Below are positions 25,140 through 35,012 of a DNA stretch of 35,012 bases, one piece after another (within the stretch, counting starts at the first letter, position 1; every line of letters starts with the position of its first letter). This DNA comes from an uncultured Bacteroidota bacterium. Its GTDB lineage: Bacteria; Bacteroidota; Bacteroidia; Chitinophagales; Chitinophagaceae. Under the pieces are notes generated by a model that did not search any database, was not told the origin of the DNA, and was given only the letters and a program-made list of their open reading frames with translations. The stretch lies in NCBI GenBank assembly GCA_903913355.1, contig CAIWKU010000504.1, forward strand, positions 1 through 35,012, read 5' to 3'. The translations under genes and the position numbers were made by a program.

Positions 25140-26201
25140 TTACTGGTTCACCATTTTCTCCGCATTTTCTGCCATTTGCAGTGCTTCAATAAATTCATCA
25201 ATATCTCCATTGATTACTGAATCCAGATTATAAGAGGTAAGACCTATACGGTGGTCTGTTACCCGCCCCTGTGGCCAGTTATAGGTTCTGATTTTGGCAC
25301 TTCTATCCCCCGTACTCACCAGGGTTTTACGTCTACCCGCTATTTCCTCTTCTTGCTTGCGTACCTGCTCTTCATACAATTTTGTGCGTAGCATGGTCAT
25401 TGCTTTCTCCCGGTTACCCAATTGTGATCGCTCCGTCTGACAAACCACCACTACTCCGGTGGGTATATGCGTTAAAAATACTTTAGTCTCTACTTTATTT
25501 ACGTTTTGTCCGCCCGCACCCCCACTTCTTGCTGTCTCCATTTTTACATCGCTCTCTTTCAACTCAAAATCCACTTCTTCTGCTTCCGGCATTACTGCAA
25601 CAGTTGCAGCAGATGTATGTACCCGCCCCTGGGTTTCTGTATTGGGTACCCGTTGAACACGATGCACGCCACTTTCAAATTTCAAAGTGCCGTATACATC
25701 CTCTCCCGTTACTTCTACCACTACTTCTTTATATCCGCCAACAGTGCCTTCACTTTCACTCACAATCGCTGTTTTCCACCCTTTTCTGGAACAATACCGT
25801 AAATACATCCCTAGCAAATCTCCCGCAAAAAGACTGGCTTCATCGCCACCAGTTCCGGCACGTATTTCCAGAATGGCATTTTTATCATCCTGCGGGTCTT
25901 TGGGTATCAGTAGTTTGGTAAGTTCTTTTTCGAGGGCATCTTTTTTTAATTCCAGTTCCGGTAATTCCATTTTGGCGAGTTCACGCATTTCTTCGTCGCT
26001 CCCGCTTTGGGCCTCTTTTGCAAAATCATAATCTGCCAGCACTTTCCGGTATTCTTCATAGGGCACCATAATCTTTTCCAGGGCACGGTATTCCTTGCTA
26101 TAGGCACCAAATTCCTTCTGGTTATTAATGATCTCAGGATTGGTCAGCGCCACACCCACTTGTTGAAACCGGGCTTTTATTGCATCCAGCTTATTCAGCA
26201 T
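25140..26201 (-). CDS. prfA: Peptide chain release factor 1
   Basis: ATG at 26201 ([15 protein letters not shown]...); [78 protein letters not shown] (RF1 type). ORF-track start 26252 adds 17 aa. Confidence 0.94.
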
Positions 26202-26298
26202 ATCCACTTTTTTTAAGGATGGCAAAATTACTGTTTTACCGGGGAAGCGCACATACTAAAAAGAGATTAGTTAATTTCATGAGATACAAGCCCCCTTT

Positions 26299-27861
26299 AT
26301 GCGACTAGTTTACTCTCTTTTTTTGCTGTTTTTCTTAAGAACCAGCGCCCAACAGGCAGATGTATTGATTAAGAATGGTAAAATTCTCGATGGAACCGGT
26401 AATAGCTGGGTGTATGGCGATCTGGCCATTCAGAAGGGTAAAATTCTGGCGATTGGCAAACTAAACAAATGGACTGCTTCAAAAATAATCGATGCCACGG
26501 GTTTGATTGTGGCACCGGGATTTATTGATGTTCATACTCATATTGAGGGTGAGGAGAAAAGAAATCCGACAGCTGATAATTTCATTTACGATGGGGTAAC
26601 TACCGTCGTTACCGGCAACTGCGGCTTATCGCAGGTGAATATCGGGAAGTATTTCGGCATGCTTGACAGCCTTACTCTTTCCATCAATGTTGCCTCTCTC
26701 GTGGGTCATAATGATGTTCGTAAAGCGATTATGGGGTCTGCTAACCGTGATCCAACAGAAGAAGAAATGAAGAAAATGGAATTAGTAGTAGAACAGGCTA
26801 TGAAAGATGGGGCTGTTGGGTTTTCTACCGGACTTATTTATATTCCCGGCACCTATTCTAAAACAGAAGAAGTGGTGAGACTGGCAAAAATAGCTGCCTC
26901 TTTTGGAGGGGTGTATGCCAGTCATATCAGAAATGAAGGTGATAGTGTAACACAAGCCATAGAAGAAGCATTACATATAGGTTGGGAAGCCAGGATGCCG
27001 GTTGAGATCTCGCATTTTAAACTCAGCGGTCAACAGAACTGGGGCAGAAGTAAAGAAACCATACCTATGATTAAAAAAGCAAGAGAAGAGGGGCTTGATG
27101 TAACCATTGATCAGTATCCGTATACTGCCAGCAGTACTTCTCTTAGCACTTTATTGCCCGACTGGGTTTTGGCGGATGGACAGGATTCGATTAAATTTAG
27201 ATTGGCCAATCCGGTAATCAGAAAAGAAGTGATCAGTTTTATGCTGCAAAGGCTTAGAAAAAGAAAGCTCAGGCATTTCAGCTATCCGGTAGTGGCATCT
27301 TATGGTGCTGACAGCACCCTGAACGGGAAGAGTATTGAAGAAGTCAATTTAAGTAAAGGAAGAAAACATATAGCCCGGCAGGAAGCAGAAACGATTCTGG
27401 AAATGATGGAACATGGAGGCGCAGGGATGATATTTCATGGAATGGGGGAAGAAGATGTAAAAGCCATTATGCAATACCCCTATAATATGTTTGCCAGTGA
27501 TGCAGGTATCCGGATTTTTAAATCAGGAAACCCCCATCCACGCGGATATGGAACGAATGCAAGGGTATTGGGAAAATATGTAAGGGAAGAAAAACTGATT
27601 TCGCTGGAAGAAGCCATACGAAGAATGACTTCCCTTCCTGCCCAGAAGTTTCAATTGAAGAACAGGGGTATTCTAAAAGAAGGATTTGCAGCAGATATCG
27701 TGGTATTTGATGAAAAGAAAGTAGGAGACAGATCAACCTATGATAATCCGCATCAATATTCGGTAGGATTTGAATATGTGTTGGTAAATGGACAGTTAAC
27801 CGTGGAATATGGAAAACATACAGGTGCCCGTGGTGGTACTACTTTACGTTTGAAAATGTAA
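26299..27861 (+). CDS. Secreted N-acyl-D-amino-acid deacylase family amidohydrolase
   Basis: 520 aa; signal peptide MRLVYSLFLLFFLRTSAQ; DVLIKNGKILDGTGNSWVYGDLAI...VAPGFIDVHTHIEGE...TGNCGLS...SHIRNEGDSVTQAIEEAL...EISHFKLSG. Confidence 0.9.
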   Translation: MRLVYSLFLLFFLRTSAQQADVLIKNGKILDGTGNSWVYGDLAIQKGKILAIGKLNKWTASKIIDATGLIVAPGFIDVHTHIEGEEKRNPTADNFIYDGVTTVVTGNCGLSQVNIGKYFGMLDSLTLSINVASLVGHNDVRKAIMGSANRDPTEEEMKKMELVVEQAMKDGAVGFSTGLIYIPGTYSKTEEVVRLAKIAASFGGVYASHIRNEGDSVTQAIEEALHIGWEARMPVEISHFKLSGQQNWGRSKETIPMIKKAREEGLDVTIDQYPYTASSTSLSTLLPDWVLADGQDSIKFRLANPVIRKEVISFMLQRLRKRKLRHFSYPVVASYGADSTLNGKSIEEVNLSKGRKHIARQEAETILEMMEHGGAGMIFHGMGEEDVKAIMQYPYNMFASDAGIRIFKSGNPHPRGYGTNARVLGKYVREEKLISLEEAIRRMTSLPAQKFQLKNRGILKEGFAADIVVFDEKKVGDRSTYDNPHQYSVGFEYVLVNGQLTVEYGKHTGARGGTTLRLKM

Positions 27862-27864
27862 TAC

Positions 27865-28953
27865 ATGAAACTATATGCTTTCATATTTCTATTCATTGCA
27901 GGGATTACTGCAACTGCACAAAAAATAAATTATAAGGGCATAGATTCTTTAATTGGTTCCTTGTCCAACAAAGATCTGTTCAGCGGAATAGTGTTGATAG
28001 CAGAGAATGGACATATCCATTATGAAAAAGCATTTGGTTATCGTGAATTTGACAAACAGCTATCATTACAAAAAACGGATCTGTTCGAAATGGCCTCAGT
28101 AAGTAAACAGTTTACAGCCATGATTATCATGATGCTAAAAGAGAAAGGCTTGCTGCAATATGATGATTTGGTTGAAAAATACCTGAGCATCCCTTACAAA
28201 GGAATCACCATCAGAAACCTGTTAACACATACCAGTGGGTTACCCGATTACCAGGCAATCATGGACGAGCATTGGGATAAATCGAAAGTTGCCGGCAATG
28301 ATGATATTTTGGCCTATCTCAATCAATACCATCCTCCTGCTCTTTTCGAACCCGGCACTCAATACGCCTATAGCAACACCGGCTATGTATTACTGGCAAG
28401 TATTGCCGAAAAAGCTTCCGGAACAGATTTTATCAACCTTTGCAGAGAAAAAATTTTCAGGAAACTGAAAATGAATCATACAGATATTAGAAGTCTGTCA
28501 GAAAAAGCAGCAATTACTCATTTTGCCATCGGACATATTTATATACCTGAAAAAAATACTTTTATACGAGCAGATTCTTTTCCTTCCTCAAACTATACTA
28601 TCTGGCTGGGTAACCGAAAAGGTCCCGGTCGTATCAGCTCTACTGCTGAGGATCTTTTAAAATGGGACCAGGCTTTGTATACAGAAAAACTGATCAGTCA
28701 GCAAACCCTTGCTGAAGCATTCTCTCCTATGAAATTAAAAAACGGAACGGTTTCTAACTATGGTTTTGGCTGGGTGCTTCCGGCAACACAAACCAATGGG
28801 AAAATAGTATACCATACAGGTGATAACCCGGGGTATAAAACAGAAATCATTCGATTTATTGATAAAAAGAAAACCCTGATTGTGCTTTGCAATAACGCAT
28901 CTTCCCAATTCGAAAATATCATACAAACCATTCAATCACATATTCTCCAATAA
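27865..28953 (+). CDS. Secreted class-C beta-lactamase-related serine hydrolase
   Basis: 362 aa; signal peptide MKLYAFIFLFIAGITATAQ; SxxK motif (MASVSKQFTA), Tyr motif YSNTGYVLL, third motif VYHTGDNPGY. Confidence 0.92.
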   Translation: MKLYAFIFLFIAGITATAQKINYKGIDSLIGSLSNKDLFSGIVLIAENGHIHYEKAFGYREFDKQLSLQKTDLFEMASVSKQFTAMIIMMLKEKGLLQYDDLVEKYLSIPYKGITIRNLLTHTSGLPDYQAIMDEHWDKSKVAGNDDILAYLNQYHPPALFEPGTQYAYSNTGYVLLASIAEKASGTDFINLCREKIFRKLKMNHTDIRSLSEKAAITHFAIGHIYIPEKNTFIRADSFPSSNYTIWLGNRKGPGRISSTAEDLLKWDQALYTEKLISQQTLAEAFSPMKLKNGTVSNYGFGWVLPATQTNGKIVYHTGDNPGYKTEIIRFIDKKKTLIVLCNNASSQFENIIQTIQSHILQ

Positions 28954-28964
28954 TACCTCATCAC

Positions 28965-30125
28965 ATGCTAAAAAAATTATGCATCTTATTACTTCCTATT
29001 TGTCTACAGGCCCAGAATTACCAGAAGATACATTCAAAAGCCATACTGGTAGATTCTCATAATGATATCCTAACCGCCTGTATCGAAAAAAAAGTAAGTA
29101 TGGATGATGACCTGAAAGGAAAAACACAATCAGACCTGATCCGGTTTAAGGAAGGTGGCGTGGATGTACAGCTATTTTCTATCTGGTGTGATGGGAACAA
29201 AATGAATCCGTATGCATGGGCTAATCGTGAGCTGGATACACTGGATGCTGTTATAAGTCGCAATCCCGATAAGATTGTTATGACCAGAACATTTGCCCAG
29301 TTAAGAAAAGCCGTCAGGCAAAAAAAGTTGGCGGCAATGGCGGGTGTGGAAGGGGGACATATGATCGAGGATAATCTTGACAACCTGAATAAATTATATG
29401 CCAGAGGTACCCGTTATATGACACTTACCTGGAACAATTCAACTTCCTGGGCCAGTTCTGCCATGGATGAAACTTCTAAAAAAGATTTATCACATAAAGG
29501 CCTCACAGATTTTGGGAAAGAAGTTATCAAAAGAATGAACGAACTGGGTATGATGGTTGACCTGTCGCATGTGGGTGAGCAAACATTCTGGGATGCCATT
29601 CATACTACTACCAAACCTGTAATTGTTTCACATAGCAATGCATATGCCCTGTGTCCGGCTTTCCGTAATTTAAAAGATGAACAGATCAAAGCTGTAGCAA
29701 AGAACGGAGGTGTGATTGATTTAAATTTTTATTCCGGATTTGTGGATAGTAATTTTCACCAGAAAGAAATTCATTTCGCTGTTGCACATGCAAAGGAGCT
29801 GGATTCTTTAAAAAAAGCGGGTATTCAACCCGAATATGCACTTAGCATGCTCACAGATAAATATGCTACTGAAGCAGAAGCCATCAGGCCTTCTTTAAGC
29901 AGTTTATTGGCTCACCTGGATTATATTGTTTCACTGGCGGGAGTAGATCATGTGGGAATTGGTTCCGATTTCGATGGCATTACATCTTCTCCGCAATCCT
30001 TGAATGATGTAACCAGTTATCCATTGATCACAAAAGCATTATTGGAAAAAGGATATAGCAAAAAAGATATTACCAAAATATTAGGTGGGAATATTTTGCG
30101 GGTTCTGAAAGCGAATGAAAAATAA
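28965..30125 (+). CDS. Secreted membrane dipeptidase (renal dipeptidase, peptidase family M19)
   Basis: 386 aa; signal peptide MLKKLCILLLPICLQAQ; VDSHNDIL, GVEGGHMIEDNLDNLNKLYARGTRYMTLTWN, MVDLSHVGEQTFWDAI, PVIVSHSNAYALCPAFRNLKDEQIKA, GIGSDFDG. Confidence 0.95.
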   Translation: MLKKLCILLLPICLQAQNYQKIHSKAILVDSHNDILTACIEKKVSMDDDLKGKTQSDLIRFKEGGVDVQLFSIWCDGNKMNPYAWANRELDTLDAVISRNPDKIVMTRTFAQLRKAVRQKKLAAMAGVEGGHMIEDNLDNLNKLYARGTRYMTLTWNNSTSWASSAMDETSKKDLSHKGLTDFGKEVIKRMNELGMMVDLSHVGEQTFWDAIHTTTKPVIVSHSNAYALCPAFRNLKDEQIKAVAKNGGVIDLNFYSGFVDSNFHQKEIHFAVAHAKELDSLKKAGIQPEYALSMLTDKYATEAEAIRPSLSSLLAHLDYIVSLAGVDHVGIGSDFDGITSSPQSLNDVTSYPLITKALLEKGYSKKDITKILGGNILRVLKANEK

Positions 30126-30288
30126 ATTTTGTCATTAGATTCTTTTTCGTTGTGATGAATATTTTTTACTGCAGAGCCGCAAAGTAGCAGTGGTTTCTCA
30201 GAGTAGTTTACCATGATAAATAATTTCGATAACAGACAATACCGGGTAATAAATACCTGACTAATAAAAATACCAAACAAAAGAGATT

Positions 30289-32385
30289 ATGAGAAAAACA
30301 CTACTGCTATTCTTGTTTCCGTTTCAATTGATTGCTCAAAACAATTCATTATCATCCTATAAAAGTTATCCATTCCCTACTGAATTGGTTTCGGCCGCAA
30401 AAGGATCACAAATAGCATGGGCACTGGATGAACAGGGTGTAAGAAATGTTTATGTAGCAGAAGGTCCAGCTTTTATACCCAGAAAGCTAACAGCATACAA
30501 TCGAAATGATGGTCAGGAAATTACCAGTATCCATATTTCTGATGATGGTAAATGGGTCGTATTTGTTCGTGGTGGAGATCATGGTGCTAATTACGATGGC
30601 GGACTTCCCTTAAATGCATCCAGTGATCCAACACCATTTAAAGTGCAGGTAGCTAGTATTCCTTTTTCTGGTGGGGAGTTAAAATATTTATCCGAAGGCG
30701 ATGCACCTGAAATTTCAAACGATAGCAAATCTGTGGTTCTAATTAAATCCGGTCAGGTTTGGATTGCACCTATTGATGGCTCATCTGCAGCGAAAAATCT
30801 GTTTACTACAAAAGGAACAGTAAGCTCTTTGGAGTGGAGCCCTTCCGGAAGTTCTTTATTATTTGTAGCCAATAGAGGCGATCATTCCATTATTGGTATT
30901 TATACGAATGAAAACACAGCTATCAAATGGATCGCTGCATCTTTCTATCGTGATAATTCGCCTCATTGGTCATTGGATGGGTCACAGATTGTTTTTATAA
31001 GAAGACCCGGTGCAGGCGGTGCACCCGATTCTTTGATGGGCAGGAAACATATTCCCTGGAGTATTTATATAGCGGATGTAAACAATAACCAGACCCGGCT
31101 TCTTTGGAAAGCTCCCAACACTTTACGTGGTTCCGCTCCTACTACGCATGGAGGAACTAACCTGCATTGGGCTGCAGATAATAAGATCATATTTCTTTCT
31201 TACCAGGATGGATGGCCACACCTTTACTCGATTGAAGCCGGCGGTGGAAAAGAGATCTTGCTAACACCGGGTAATTTCATGTGCGAGCACATTGTTTTAA
31301 GCGCTGATAAAAAATTTCTCACATTCAGTGCAAATGCGGGCCCTGATGCACTTGATATAGAAAGAAGACATGCAGTTAAAGTAAGTGTTAGTAAAGCCGA
31401 TATGGAAGTCTTAACTATCGGAAACGGATTAGAATGGACACCTGTTCTGACAAATGAAAATAAAACAGTGGCTTTTATCAGTGCTACTACTCAGCAATCA
31501 CCTTTGCCTGCTTATCAATCTTTATCGGGTGATAAATCCATTCATTTGATTGGCACCAATCTGGTACCCACTGATTTTCCAAAAGAAAAATTAATAACGC
31601 CTACCCAAGTGATTTTTAAAGCTGCAGATGGGGTAACCGTTCATGCCCAACTATTCATGCCTGAAAAAGGTGCTGGTAAAAAACCCGCTATCGTTTACGT
31701 GCATGGGGGGCCACCCCGGCAAATGCTATTAGGCTGGAATTATTCAGATTATTATTCAAATGCCTATGCATCTAATCAATACCTGGCAAGTTTGGGTTTT
31801 GTGGTGCTATCTGTTAACTATCGACTGGGAATTGGTTATGGTTATGAATTCCATCAACCTGCCAAAGGAGGTGCTTTTGGTGCAGCCGAATACCAGGATA
31901 TCAAAGCAGCCGGATTATGGTTAGCAAAACAGAAATTTGTGGATAGTACAAAAATTGGCATCTATGGTGGCTCTTATGGAGGTTACCTGACAGCAATGGC
32001 ATTATCCAGAGATTCAAAATTATTTGCAGCCGGTGTAGATATTCATGGGGTACACGACTGGACGGCACAGGCTTCACTGGTTACTAACAATGATAAATAT
32101 GAAAAAGCTCCGGATTATGATAAAGCTTTGAAAACGGCCTGGCAATCCTCACCAGTATCTTCTATCAATACATGGAAATCACCCGTATTGATAATTCATG
32201 CTGATGATGACCGGAATGTTCGCTTTAACCAGAGTGTAGATCTGATTAATCGACTTGAAAAAAAGGGTGTGCCTTTTGAAACGCTCATGATTGTTGATGA
32301 TACACACCACTGGATGAATTGGAATAATGCCGTTAAAGTGTATGGAGCAGTCGCAGATTTTTTTGTTCGAAAGTTTCAAAATTAA
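30289..32385 (+). CDS. Secreted S9 family peptidase (prolyl oligopeptidase/DPP-like)
   Basis: 698 aa; signal peptide MRKTLLLFLFPFQLIAQ; propeller repeats, PAIVYVHGGPPRQM, KIGIYGGSYGGYLTAMAL (GxSxGG), LIIHADDDRNVRFNQS, DDTHHW. Confidence 0.94.
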   Translation: MRKTLLLFLFPFQLIAQNNSLSSYKSYPFPTELVSAAKGSQIAWALDEQGVRNVYVAEGPAFIPRKLTAYNRNDGQEITSIHISDDGKWVVFVRGGDHGANYDGGLPLNASSDPTPFKVQVASIPFSGGELKYLSEGDAPEISNDSKSVVLIKSGQVWIAPIDGSSAAKNLFTTKGTVSSLEWSPSGSSLLFVANRGDHSIIGIYTNENTAIKWIAASFYRDNSPHWSLDGSQIVFIRRPGAGGAPDSLMGRKHIPWSIYIADVNNNQTRLLWKAPNTLRGSAPTTHGGTNLHWAADNKIIFLSYQDGWPHLYSIEAGGGKEILLTPGNFMCEHIVLSADKKFLTFSANAGPDALDIERRHAVKVSVSKADMEVLTIGNGLEWTPVLTNENKTVAFISATTQQSPLPAYQSLSGDKSIHLIGTNLVPTDFPKEKLITPTQVIFKAADGVTVHAQLFMPEKGAGKKPAIVYVHGGPPRQMLLGWNYSDYYSNAYASNQYLASLGFVVLSVNYRLGIGYGYEFHQPAKGGAFGAAEYQDIKAAGLWLAKQKFVDSTKIGIYGGSYGGYLTAMALSRDSKLFAAGVDIHGVHDWTAQASLVTNNDKYEKAPDYDKALKTAWQSSPVSSINTWKSPVLIIHADDDRNVRFNQSVDLINRLEKKGVPFETLMIVDDTHHWMNWNNAVKVYGAVADFFVRKFQN

Positions 32386-32403
32386 ATACCTGTTGAAAAT
32401 AAT

Positions 32404-34623
32404 TTGTTTATGAGAAAATCGCTTTTCTATATGCATAAAATAACTGTGTATATTTTTATACTCTTTTTTCCGTGTATTCTTTCTGCGCAGGGATTCGACA
32501 AAAATGAAATTGCCCGATGGCAGCAGGAAGCCAACCAGGTAACGATTATTCGCGACAACTGGGGTATTCCACATATTTATGGAAAAAAAGATGCAGATGC
32601 TGTATTCGGATTATTATATGCACAATGTGAGGATGATTTTAAAAGAGTGGAGATGAATTATATTGAGAAGCTGGGAAGAAAATCAGAAGTATATGGTGAA
32701 ACAGAATTGTATAATGACCTCTTGATTCGTATGGTGATAGATTCGTCTGAAGCCATCAAAGACTACCAGCAGGCTCCAGAATGGTTACAAAAATTACTAA
32801 ATGCTTATGCAGATGGGATTAATTTTTATCTCTACAAACATCCTTCTCTAAAACCCGCATTACTAACCCGATTTCAACCATGGTATCCTTTATTATGGAC
32901 CGATGGAAGTATTGGTGCCATTGATATTGCAGATGTAACAGTTGGTGAACTAAAAAGTTTTTATTCTGGAGATCCTGGAAGTACCGCTTTATTGATACCA
33001 AAAGAGGTAGATCCTTTACCCGGCGGCTCCAATGGATTTGCGATTGCGCCATCCAAAACTGTTTCAGGTAATGCAATACTTTATATCAATCCCCATGTAA
33101 CATTTTATTTTCGACCGGAAGTAGCTGTACAAAGCGAAGAAGGATTACATGCCTATGGTGCCGTAACCTGGGGTCAGTTTTTTGTATACCAGGGATTTAA
33201 TGAACATTGTGGCTGGATGCATACTTCCAGTTACAGTGATGTGGCAGATACTTATATTGAAAAAGTAAGCAAAAAAGAGAATGGTTTTTTTTATCAATAT
33301 GAAAACGAGTTCAGACCTGTAAAACAGAAAGAGATTAGTATCCGCTATCTTTCTAATAGCAGTTTGTTAACCAAAACATTCACTACTTATTATACCCACC
33401 ATGGTCCGGTAATGGCCAAACGCAACGGTCAATGGATTTCTGTTAAAGCCAATAACCGGGATATGAAAGGTTTGATACAATCCTGGCAACGCACAAAAGC
33501 AAACGGGTATCAAGCATTCAAAAAAACTATGGAGCTATTGGCCAACACATCTAACAATACAGTGTATGCGGATGATCAGGGTAATATCGCCTACTGGCAT
33601 GGCAATTTTATGCCGAAGCGGGATCCGCAATTTAACTGGAGCAAACCCGTGGATGGTTCTACCAGTGCTACAGAATGGAAGGGCTTACATTCCCTGGATG
33701 AATTGATACAAGTTCATAATCCCGCAACAGGTTGGATACAAAACTGCAACTCAACACCTTTTACGGTATCCGGAGCCAGCAGCCCCAAAAAAGAAAATTT
33801 TCCAGCTTATATGGCACCTAACGGAGATAATTTCAGAGGTGTAAATGCAGCGAAAATATTAAACAGTACCGATCAATATACCATTGATAAAGTAATTGCC
33901 TCAGGCTATGATACACATCTTGCTGCTTTTGACGCGTTGATTCCGGCACTATTAAAAGCATATGAGAATAATAAAAGCAATGCAGCTTATCGGGTATTGG
34001 AAGCGCCGATACAAATACTATCCAACTGGAATCGCAATTCCTCAGAAACTTCAGTAGCCACAACATTGGCCATTGAATGGGCACAAAAATTATGGCCTGC
34101 CATTCAAAGACCTGCTGGAGAAAATGATAAGACTGATCAGGTAGAAAAAACATGGCGCTTTGCTACAAATGCTTCGCCGCCAAATTTATTGGACCCATTG
34201 ATTACAACCTTAAACGATCTTACGAAAAAGTATGGCAGCTGGCAAATTGCCTGGGGAGAGATCAATCGATACCAAAGATTAAGCGGAAACCTTACTGAAA
34301 AATTTGATGATGCAAAACCCAGTATCCCAGTTGGGTTTGCTGCATCTACCTGGGGTTGTTTACCCTCATTTGTGAGCAGGAGTTTTAACGGCACCAATAA
34401 AAGATACGGCTATAACGGAAATAGTTTTATCTGCGCAATTGAATTCGGAAAAACAGTGAAAGCAAAATCATTATTGGCAGGGGGGGAAAGCGGTAATGAA
34501 AATTCAGCGCATTTTGGAGACCAGGCATTGATGTATAGTAAGGGGCAGTTTAAAGAAGTTTTGTTTTACAAGGAAGATGTAATAAAACATGCAGAAAAAA
34601 CCTATCACCCGGGTTTTGAATAA
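32404..34623 (+). CDS. Secreted penicillin acylase-family Ntn hydrolase (S45)
   Basis: 739 aa; signal peptide; VTIIRDNWGIPHIYGKKDADAVFGLLYAQCEDDFKRVEMN; candidate beta-chain start GGSNGFAIAPSKTVSGNAILYINPH; YTHHGPV; CNSTPF. Confidence 0.92.
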   Translation: MFMRKSLFYMHKITVYIFILFFPCILSAQGFDKNEIARWQQEANQVTIIRDNWGIPHIYGKKDADAVFGLLYAQCEDDFKRVEMNYIEKLGRKSEVYGETELYNDLLIRMVIDSSEAIKDYQQAPEWLQKLLNAYADGINFYLYKHPSLKPALLTRFQPWYPLLWTDGSIGAIDIADVTVGELKSFYSGDPGSTALLIPKEVDPLPGGSNGFAIAPSKTVSGNAILYINPHVTFYFRPEVAVQSEEGLHAYGAVTWGQFFVYQGFNEHCGWMHTSSYSDVADTYIEKVSKKENGFFYQYENEFRPVKQKEISIRYLSNSSLLTKTFTTYYTHHGPVMAKRNGQWISVKANNRDMKGLIQSWQRTKANGYQAFKKTMELLANTSNNTVYADDQGNIAYWHGNFMPKRDPQFNWSKPVDGSTSATEWKGLHSLDELIQVHNPATGWIQNCNSTPFTVSGASSPKKENFPAYMAPNGDNFRGVNAAKILNSTDQYTIDKVIASGYDTHLAAFDALIPALLKAYENNKSNAAYRVLEAPIQILSNWNRNSSETSVATTLAIEWAQKLWPAIQRPAGENDKTDQVEKTWRFATNASPPNLLDPLITTLNDLTKKYGSWQIAWGEINRYQRLSGNLTEKFDDAKPSIPVGFAASTWGCLPSFVSRSFNGTNKRYGYNGNSFICAIEFGKTVKAKSLLAGGESGNENSAHFGDQALMYSKGQFKEVLFYKEDVIKHAEKTYHPGFE

Positions 34624-34683
34624 AAGGAAATAGAAAGTAGACAGATCAAAATTGCCATATAACCATTAAACAATGCAACCATT

Positions 34684-35012
34684 ATGAAAAAGATTCTCAT
34701 CCTGATGCTAATGCCCATCTCACTAATGGCGCAGAAAAATTTTACCGAATTACTGGAAAAATATATGCAGGCAGAAAACCAGGTAAAAGGTTTTACTGGT
34801 TCAGTACTTGTTATGAAAAATAATAAAGTATTGATTAGAAAAGCATATGGCATGGCTGATAGAGAATGGAATGTGGCTAATACCCCCGATACGAAATTTG
34901 AGATCGGCTCCATTACCAAACAATTTACGGCTGCCAGCATTTTGCAACTGGTGGAGCAGGGTAAATTAAGTTTAGATGATAAGTTAAGTAAGTTTATTCC
35001 TTCTTTTCCAAA
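34684..35012 (+). CDS. Second class-C beta-lactamase-related serine hydrolase (3' end outside window)
   Basis: MKKILILMLMPISLMAQKNFTELLEKYMQAENQVKGFTGSVLVMKNNKVLIRKAYGMADREWNVANTPDTKFEIGSITKQFTAASILQLVEQGKLSLDDKL...; SxxK motif SITK. Confidence 0.9.
   Translation, partial: MKKILILMLMPISLMAQKNFTELLEKYMQAENQVKGFTGSVLVMKNNKVLIRKAYGMADREWNVANTPDTKFEIGSITKQFTAASILQLVEQGKLSLDDKLSKFIPSFP

Follow-up and report, generated by a model that had tools for sequence, protein, structure and literature searches.

A run of genes for exported hydrolases occupies the right-hand end of a contig from an uncultured member of the Chitinophagaceae and raises the question whether the encoded enzymes act together on one class of substrates. 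A first-pass annotation of this DNA had proposed a pathway which dismantles N-acylated peptides containing D-residues. The window analyzed here, with a length of 35,012 nucleotides, corresponds to a complete contig of a MAG assembly that comprises 595 contigs and 3.42 Mb, and gene G has no right-hand neighbor in this assembly.

Layout of the cluster and predicted location of its products

The cluster (positions 26299-35012) comprises five complete genes and one truncated gene, all encoded on the plus strand (Table 1). The open reading frames confirmed the previously described row of six consecutive genes with gaps of 3, 11, 163, 18, and 60 bp. For gene F the ATG at 32410 is a likelier start than the TTG at 32404, and with this start the gap between E and F amounts to 24 bp instead of 18 bp. 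All six family assignments of the annotation were backed by a Pfam match.

Table 1. Genes of the hydrolase cluster and the neighboring locus marker.
Gene	Product	Coordinates	Strand	Pfam match or remark
prfA	Release factor 1; divergent conserved flank, outside the cluster, locus marker	25140..26252	-	Neighbor in many relatives
B	Exported D-aminoacylase-like amidohydrolase, 520 aa	26299..27861	+	PF07969 Amidohydro_3
C	Exported S12 (class C beta-lactamase fold) serine hydrolase, 362 aa	27865..28953	+	PF00144
D	Exported M19 dipeptidase, 386 aa	28965..30125	+	PF01244 Peptidase_M19
E	Exported S9 (prolyl-oligopeptidase/DPP4 superfamily) peptidase, 698 aa	30289..32385	+	PF00326 + PD40/DPPIV_N
F	Exported S45 penicillin-acylase-type Ntn hydrolase	32404 or 32410..34623	+	PF01804 Penicil_amidase
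G	Second exported S12 protein, first 109 aa only, cut by contig end	34684..35012	+	PF00144 partial

In line with the annotation, leaders resembling signal peptides were seen: all six proteins start, as judged by eye, with a hydrophobic stretch whose last residues are AQ. Regarding the destination of the proteins, the annotation had left the choice between the periplasm and the extracellular space. No lipobox was seen by eye in the six leaders and no type IX secretion sorting domain was among the Pfam matches of the six proteins, so that the periplasm is the likelier predicted location and the extracellular alternative lost ground. Scans for the Bacteroidota-type promoter motif, sigma-70 promoters, and terminators gave nothing beyond chance level, and no Rfam or tRNA match was found within the window. 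The cluster contains no gene for a sugar enzyme, a MurNAc amidase, a peptidoglycan-specific amidase or endopeptidase, a regulator, or a transporter.

Recurrence of the gene order

An independent MAG contig (L032), whose D protein is 97% identical to that of the window, carries B-C-D-E-F in the same order, and it is thus unlikely that this order is an assembly accident. The arrangement prfA-B-(C)-D-(E)-F was found in many Chitinophagaceae, with gaps of mostly a few bases (B to C mostly 1-4 bp, C to D mostly 0-16 bp). In Sediminibacterium ginsengisoli (L093), a relative that can be cultured, the prfA locus carries B-C-D. For a comparison of neighborhoods, 80 loci were collected with D as query, and genes on the same strand within four genes of D were counted as partners. 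Relatives of the D-aminoacylase were present near D in 39 of these loci, S12 genes in 29, S45 genes in 26, and S9 and gamma-glutamyltransferase genes in eight each. As a control, 338 genes of these loci at a distance of more than five positions were examined, among which there were three S12 genes, one S45 gene, and no gene of the other three families; since the loci are related, these counts are not independent, and the distant control genes are partly conserved housekeeping genes. Taken together, the order on L032, the enrichment of partners near D, and the short gaps argue that the cluster is not a product of chance.

Stronger evidence than the neighbor counts is provided by the re-association of the same genes at other loci. 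The order E-B-D-x-F occurs in L064, D-F-B in L089 and, by its other neighbors, in L087, and D-x-B in L111; the latter three loci lie beside what appears by eye to be an alternative complex III operon. Further arrangements are F-D (L100), D-B (L106), F-B (L169), and B-D at another locus (L172). Even if only well-supported branches are counted, the M19 tree demands several changes of locus. Two loci from two other, distant bacterial families carry related sets, namely a D-aminoacylase relative followed by S12, class A beta-lactamase fold, S45, and amidohydrolase genes (L179), and S12 followed by S51/M20, a D-aminoacylase relative, and S45 (L213). The class A beta-lactamase-fold gene of the former (L179:8833-9732) encodes a lipoprotein-like protein with SSN in place of SDN.

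The conservation of gene order within the Chitinophagaceae, on which the annotation had made its proposal depend, can therefore be affirmed as far as synteny recurs; exceptions exist even among members of the same genus, several of whose genomes have B, D, and F at separate loci. In a phylum-wide sample of 60 loci around D-aminoacylase relatives (five of them unscored), S12 genes were near in five cases, S45 genes in four, and M19 genes in two. Most D-aminoacylase relatives of the phylum thus occur without any of these partners, which weakens the assumption that they always travel together.

Not all members are equally constant. E is missing from many otherwise syntenic loci and is regarded as optional. 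G is represented by 109 amino acids only; S12 genes 72-74% identical to it lie behind F, in L066 as the next gene and in L035 with an M61 peptidase gene in between. In summary, B-C-D-(E)-F(-G) represents a conserved, co-directional, operon-like set, for which we infer co-transcription from the sequence.

Two side observations concern additional neighbors. One recurrent neighbor of B, D, E, or F (L071, L085, L111, L117, and L165) is a membrane protein that carries an HGSNAT-like N-acetyltransferase domain. In L070 the S9 and S45 genes are separated by an uninterrupted row of seven copies of a gene for a small putative membrane protein, the tested copy being without a Pfam match.

Features of the individual enzymes

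By sequence, the best solved relatives of B are an N-acyl-D-Glu deacylase (3gip) and a D-aminoacylase (1m7j). Alignment with both proteins revealed the metal ligands and the catalytic Asp (HxH, Cys, His, His, Asp) in B and all of its 38 relatives; among the residues kept in 38/38 are H79, H81, C108, H209, H239, K241, Y273, D401, and R415. In D-aminoacylases the acyl group and the alpha-carboxylate are anchored by Tyr, Lys, Tyr, Ser, Asp, and Arg (PMC12017989), and the anchors Y181, K241, Y273, S279, D401, and R415 of B are invariant among the relatives aligned. Two other anchors, Leu116 and Leu370, are without a clean match in B, and Leu370 falls at an indel. An AlphaFold2 model of B (mean pLDDT 80.8, stretches of the active-site loops below 50) possesses the overall D-aminoacylase fold, with 1m7j as best PDB match (TM 0.79/0.86). 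B hence shares metal ligands, alpha-carboxylate anchors, and fold with the D-aminoacylases of Alcaligenes (AfDam, 1m7j), Bordetella (BbDam, 3gip), and Klebsiella (9g5m). It differs from them in having a leader of the export type, additional residues behind the SDAG motif, and an insertion domain which cannot be aligned by sequence, and in being encoded within a hydrolase cluster. As this insertion includes the loop-2 specificity residue (Leu, Arg, or Gln), we claim no preference of B for hydrophobic or acidic D-residues.

The structural comparison also bears on a role in amino-sugar metabolism, in which B would be a GlcNAc1A deacetylase of the OngB type acting in oxidative chitin breakdown, and the cluster would handle chitin-linked material. 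OngB is closely related to the D-aminoacylases (PMC12017989), the host family includes chitin degraders, and the OngB structures come almost as close to the model of B as do the D-aminoacylases (order 1m7j, 9g5m, OngB, 3gip; all TM 0.79-0.87). By sequence, however, OngB scores below the D-aminoacylases, and at the position which, if the alignment is right, corresponds to Ser292 of the OngB group, B has a Thr (T280) that is invariant in 13 relatives. This D-aminoacylase-like Thr argues against the OngB branch; moreover, no chitin gene was recognized in the cluster or its annotated relatives. We consider an amino-sugar role extremely unlikely.

C contains the motifs S78xxK81, Y169xN171, and H317xG319, which are conserved in 23/23 relatives and place it with the DD-/D-peptidase-like S12 serine hydrolases. 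S12 enzymes with HxG as third motif comprise DD-peptidases, D-peptidases, and esterases. Solved relatives of C include the alkaline D-peptidase 4y7p and the DD-peptidase 1cef, with which it shares SxxK, YxN, and HxG, although the overall similarity is low. Class C beta-lactamases, in contrast, have KTG as third motif, a variant absent from C and all 23 relatives. The score of C with the general class C beta-lactamase model is 82.8 bits (cut-off 415), and it stays far under every beta-lactamase cut-off shown; motif and score argue against C being a class C beta-lactamase.

These data are also pertinent to the idea that the set detoxifies beta-lactams, which mimic acyl-D-Ala-D-Ala, or uses them as food. 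Members that act on beta-lactams are known from each of the S12, penicillin-acylase, and renal-dipeptidase (dehydropeptidase) families, and the class A beta-lactamase-fold gene between S12 and S45 in L179 would suit such a function. On the other hand, C has the HxG motif and low scores, the L179 protein has SSN, and in the inspected loci we came across no further gene of the resistance type. Breakdown of beta-lactams is improbable.

The nearest solved relative of D is Sco3058 (3id7), a renal dipeptidase homolog, to which it matches across most of its length. The M19 zinc ligands (His, Asp, Glu, His, His) are complete in D and in 80/80 relatives. The two proteins differ at His152 (human numbering), an active-site residue of renal dipeptidase; D has a Trp (Trp156) in this place, as do 76/80 relatives. 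Owing to its strong match with the family model D was retained as an M19 protein, with a putative and not an established activity as dipeptidase. In ten loci (L049, L052, L057-L061, L063, L123, and L126) genes of the M19 lineage of D directly precede a gamma-glutamyltransferase gene near recA/nadA, which would fit an ordinary role of that lineage in glutathione or gamma-glutamyl metabolism. In L253 and L264 a D-aminoacylase relative has a gamma-glutamyltransferase gene nearby as well.

E is a DPP4-like S9 peptidase with a PD40/DPPIV-like propeller, and its residues S562, D640, and H673/H674 are present in 6/6 relatives. F has cephalosporin acylases as nearest solved relatives, 1keh foremost. 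The hallmarks of the S45 family, i.e., the Gly-Ser processing junction, His23, and the beta-chain Asn, were detected in F and 24/24 relatives, where S209, H231, and N449 correspond to the nucleophilic Ser, His23, and Asn of the penicillin/cephalosporin acylases. Overall similarity to 1keh is low, and the position of Arg57 in glutaryl-cephalosporin acylase is occupied by Tyr (23/24), for which reason glutaryl specificity of F was set aside.

The S45 family contains acylases of acyl-homoserine lactones (AHL) and of lipopeptides as well. The membership of F in this family and its weak match with the model of the AHL acylase PvdQ are compatible with a quenching function, in which F would inactivate AHL signals or antibiotics of the acylated lipopeptide type while the other enzymes clean up. 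The PvdQ score of F, however, is 74.4 bits against a cut-off of 950, its nearest solved relatives are the cephalosporin acylases, and no signaling or resistance genes were recognized beside the cluster. Nothing in F or the cluster points toward the quenching of quorum signals or lipopeptides brought up by the annotation, and we judge it very improbable.

Pairing of S12 and D-aminoacylase-like genes and proposed function

The genome from which the window derives includes three D-aminoacylase-like genes (E < 1e-60), and all three are located beside an S12 gene or fused to one: B-C in the window, a pair on contig C176 (14 bp gap), and a single reading frame on contig C103. Given that 19 S12 matches were counted in this genome, the chance of three such pairings is about 1e-5, a rough, post hoc value which assumes approximately 3,000 genes and independence. 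Single-frame fusions of S12 and D-aminoacylase-like domains were detected in G000:C103:2-2389 (L112), L113:7108-9651, L114:8981-11524, L167, and L173. The fusion of the window's own genome (C103) is cut by the contig end; it is full length (848 aa) in genomes G003 and G021 and is present in G185 and G249, too.

In G003, G021, and G249 the fusion is followed by DgcN-like and Ala-Glu-epimerase/DgcA-like genes, and in many relatives an unfused D-aminoacylase paralog likewise precedes this gene pair. DgcN and DgcA have been reported as a D-glutamate route (PMC10845958, PMC12363236). With 151 bits (cut-off 480) for the DgcN-like protein and 208 bits (cut-off 500) for the epimerase, both remain below the cut-offs and are therefore referred to as "like" and not as members. 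Relatives of B are thus encoded together with components resembling the D-glutamate pathway, but this link lies outside the cluster of the window, and a search for DgcN in the genome of the window gave no match.

In the reading we favor, with a probability of roughly one half, the cluster would encode a conserved periplasmic hydrolase set which trims short peptides with D-residues and/or N-acyl caps and frees amino acids and acyl groups for uptake. It was deduced, including substrates and order of steps, from enzyme families and gene neighbors. The S12 enzymes C and G would cut at D-residues, the S45 enzyme F would take off the N-acyl cap, and the S9 peptidase E would shorten L-peptide parts. 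D and B, the M19 enzyme and the D-aminoacylase relative, could then finish X-D-Xaa dipeptides and N-acyl-D-amino acids. As likeliest natural source one may guess at peptidoglycan stem peptides, released by turnover or from prey or dead cells; the D-glutamate link of the paralog and the motif type of the S12 enzymes speak for this source. The D-residue substrates proposed by the first-pass annotation gain circumstantial support from the anchors of B, the HxG motif of C, the S12-D-aminoacylase pairing and fusion, and the operon of the paralog with DgcN-like and epimerase genes.

Ordinary peptide scavenging by co-regulated exported peptidases and esterases of broad L-peptide specificity, with no D-residue pathway involved, would account for several features of the loci. 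M19 enzymes cleave L-L dipeptides too, E is an ordinary S9 peptidase resembling DPP4, and some clusters contain M61, M28, or S51/M20 peptidases. Furthermore, the adjacency of D-like M19 and gamma-glutamyltransferase genes in a sister lineage is as expected for the breakdown of glutathione and Cys-Gly. Generic scavenging, however, does not predict the repeated pairing and fusion of S12 and D-aminoacylase genes, and the substrate anchors of D-aminoacylases are intact in B. We regard this explanation as rather unlikely, though worth keeping in mind.

Tentatively, the trimming of D-residue and N-acyl-capped peptides may be extended to an undescribed periplasmic pathway of Bacteroidota, in which S12 D-peptidase and D-aminoacylase, as a dedicated pair that is sometimes fused into one protein, together with the M19 protein and the S45 acylase dismantle peptidoglycan-derived or acylated D-peptides and feed the catabolism of D-glutamate and D-amino acids. 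The parts belong to known families; their combination and the fusion appear to be undescribed in the literature searched, as no description of the gene set was found in open-licence papers. If the proposal is true, common soil and freshwater Bacteroidota would possess exported steps which turn D-amino-acid peptides, a fraction of organic matter that is degraded slowly, into nutrients. Owing to the S12-D-aminoacylase fusion and the DgcN-linked paralog, the idea is open to tests on individual purified proteins.

The operon of the paralog or fusion with a DgcN-like DUF1611 gene and an enolase-family epimerase gene was observed in L113, L114, L164, L167, L246-L250, L256, and L257, and the paralog of this operon is without the metal-site Cys of B. 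In the S12-paired paralogs G000:C176:8297-9964 (L115) and L116, both the HxH and the Cys metal ligands are lost, and these proteins may hence use another mechanism or be inactive as deacylases.
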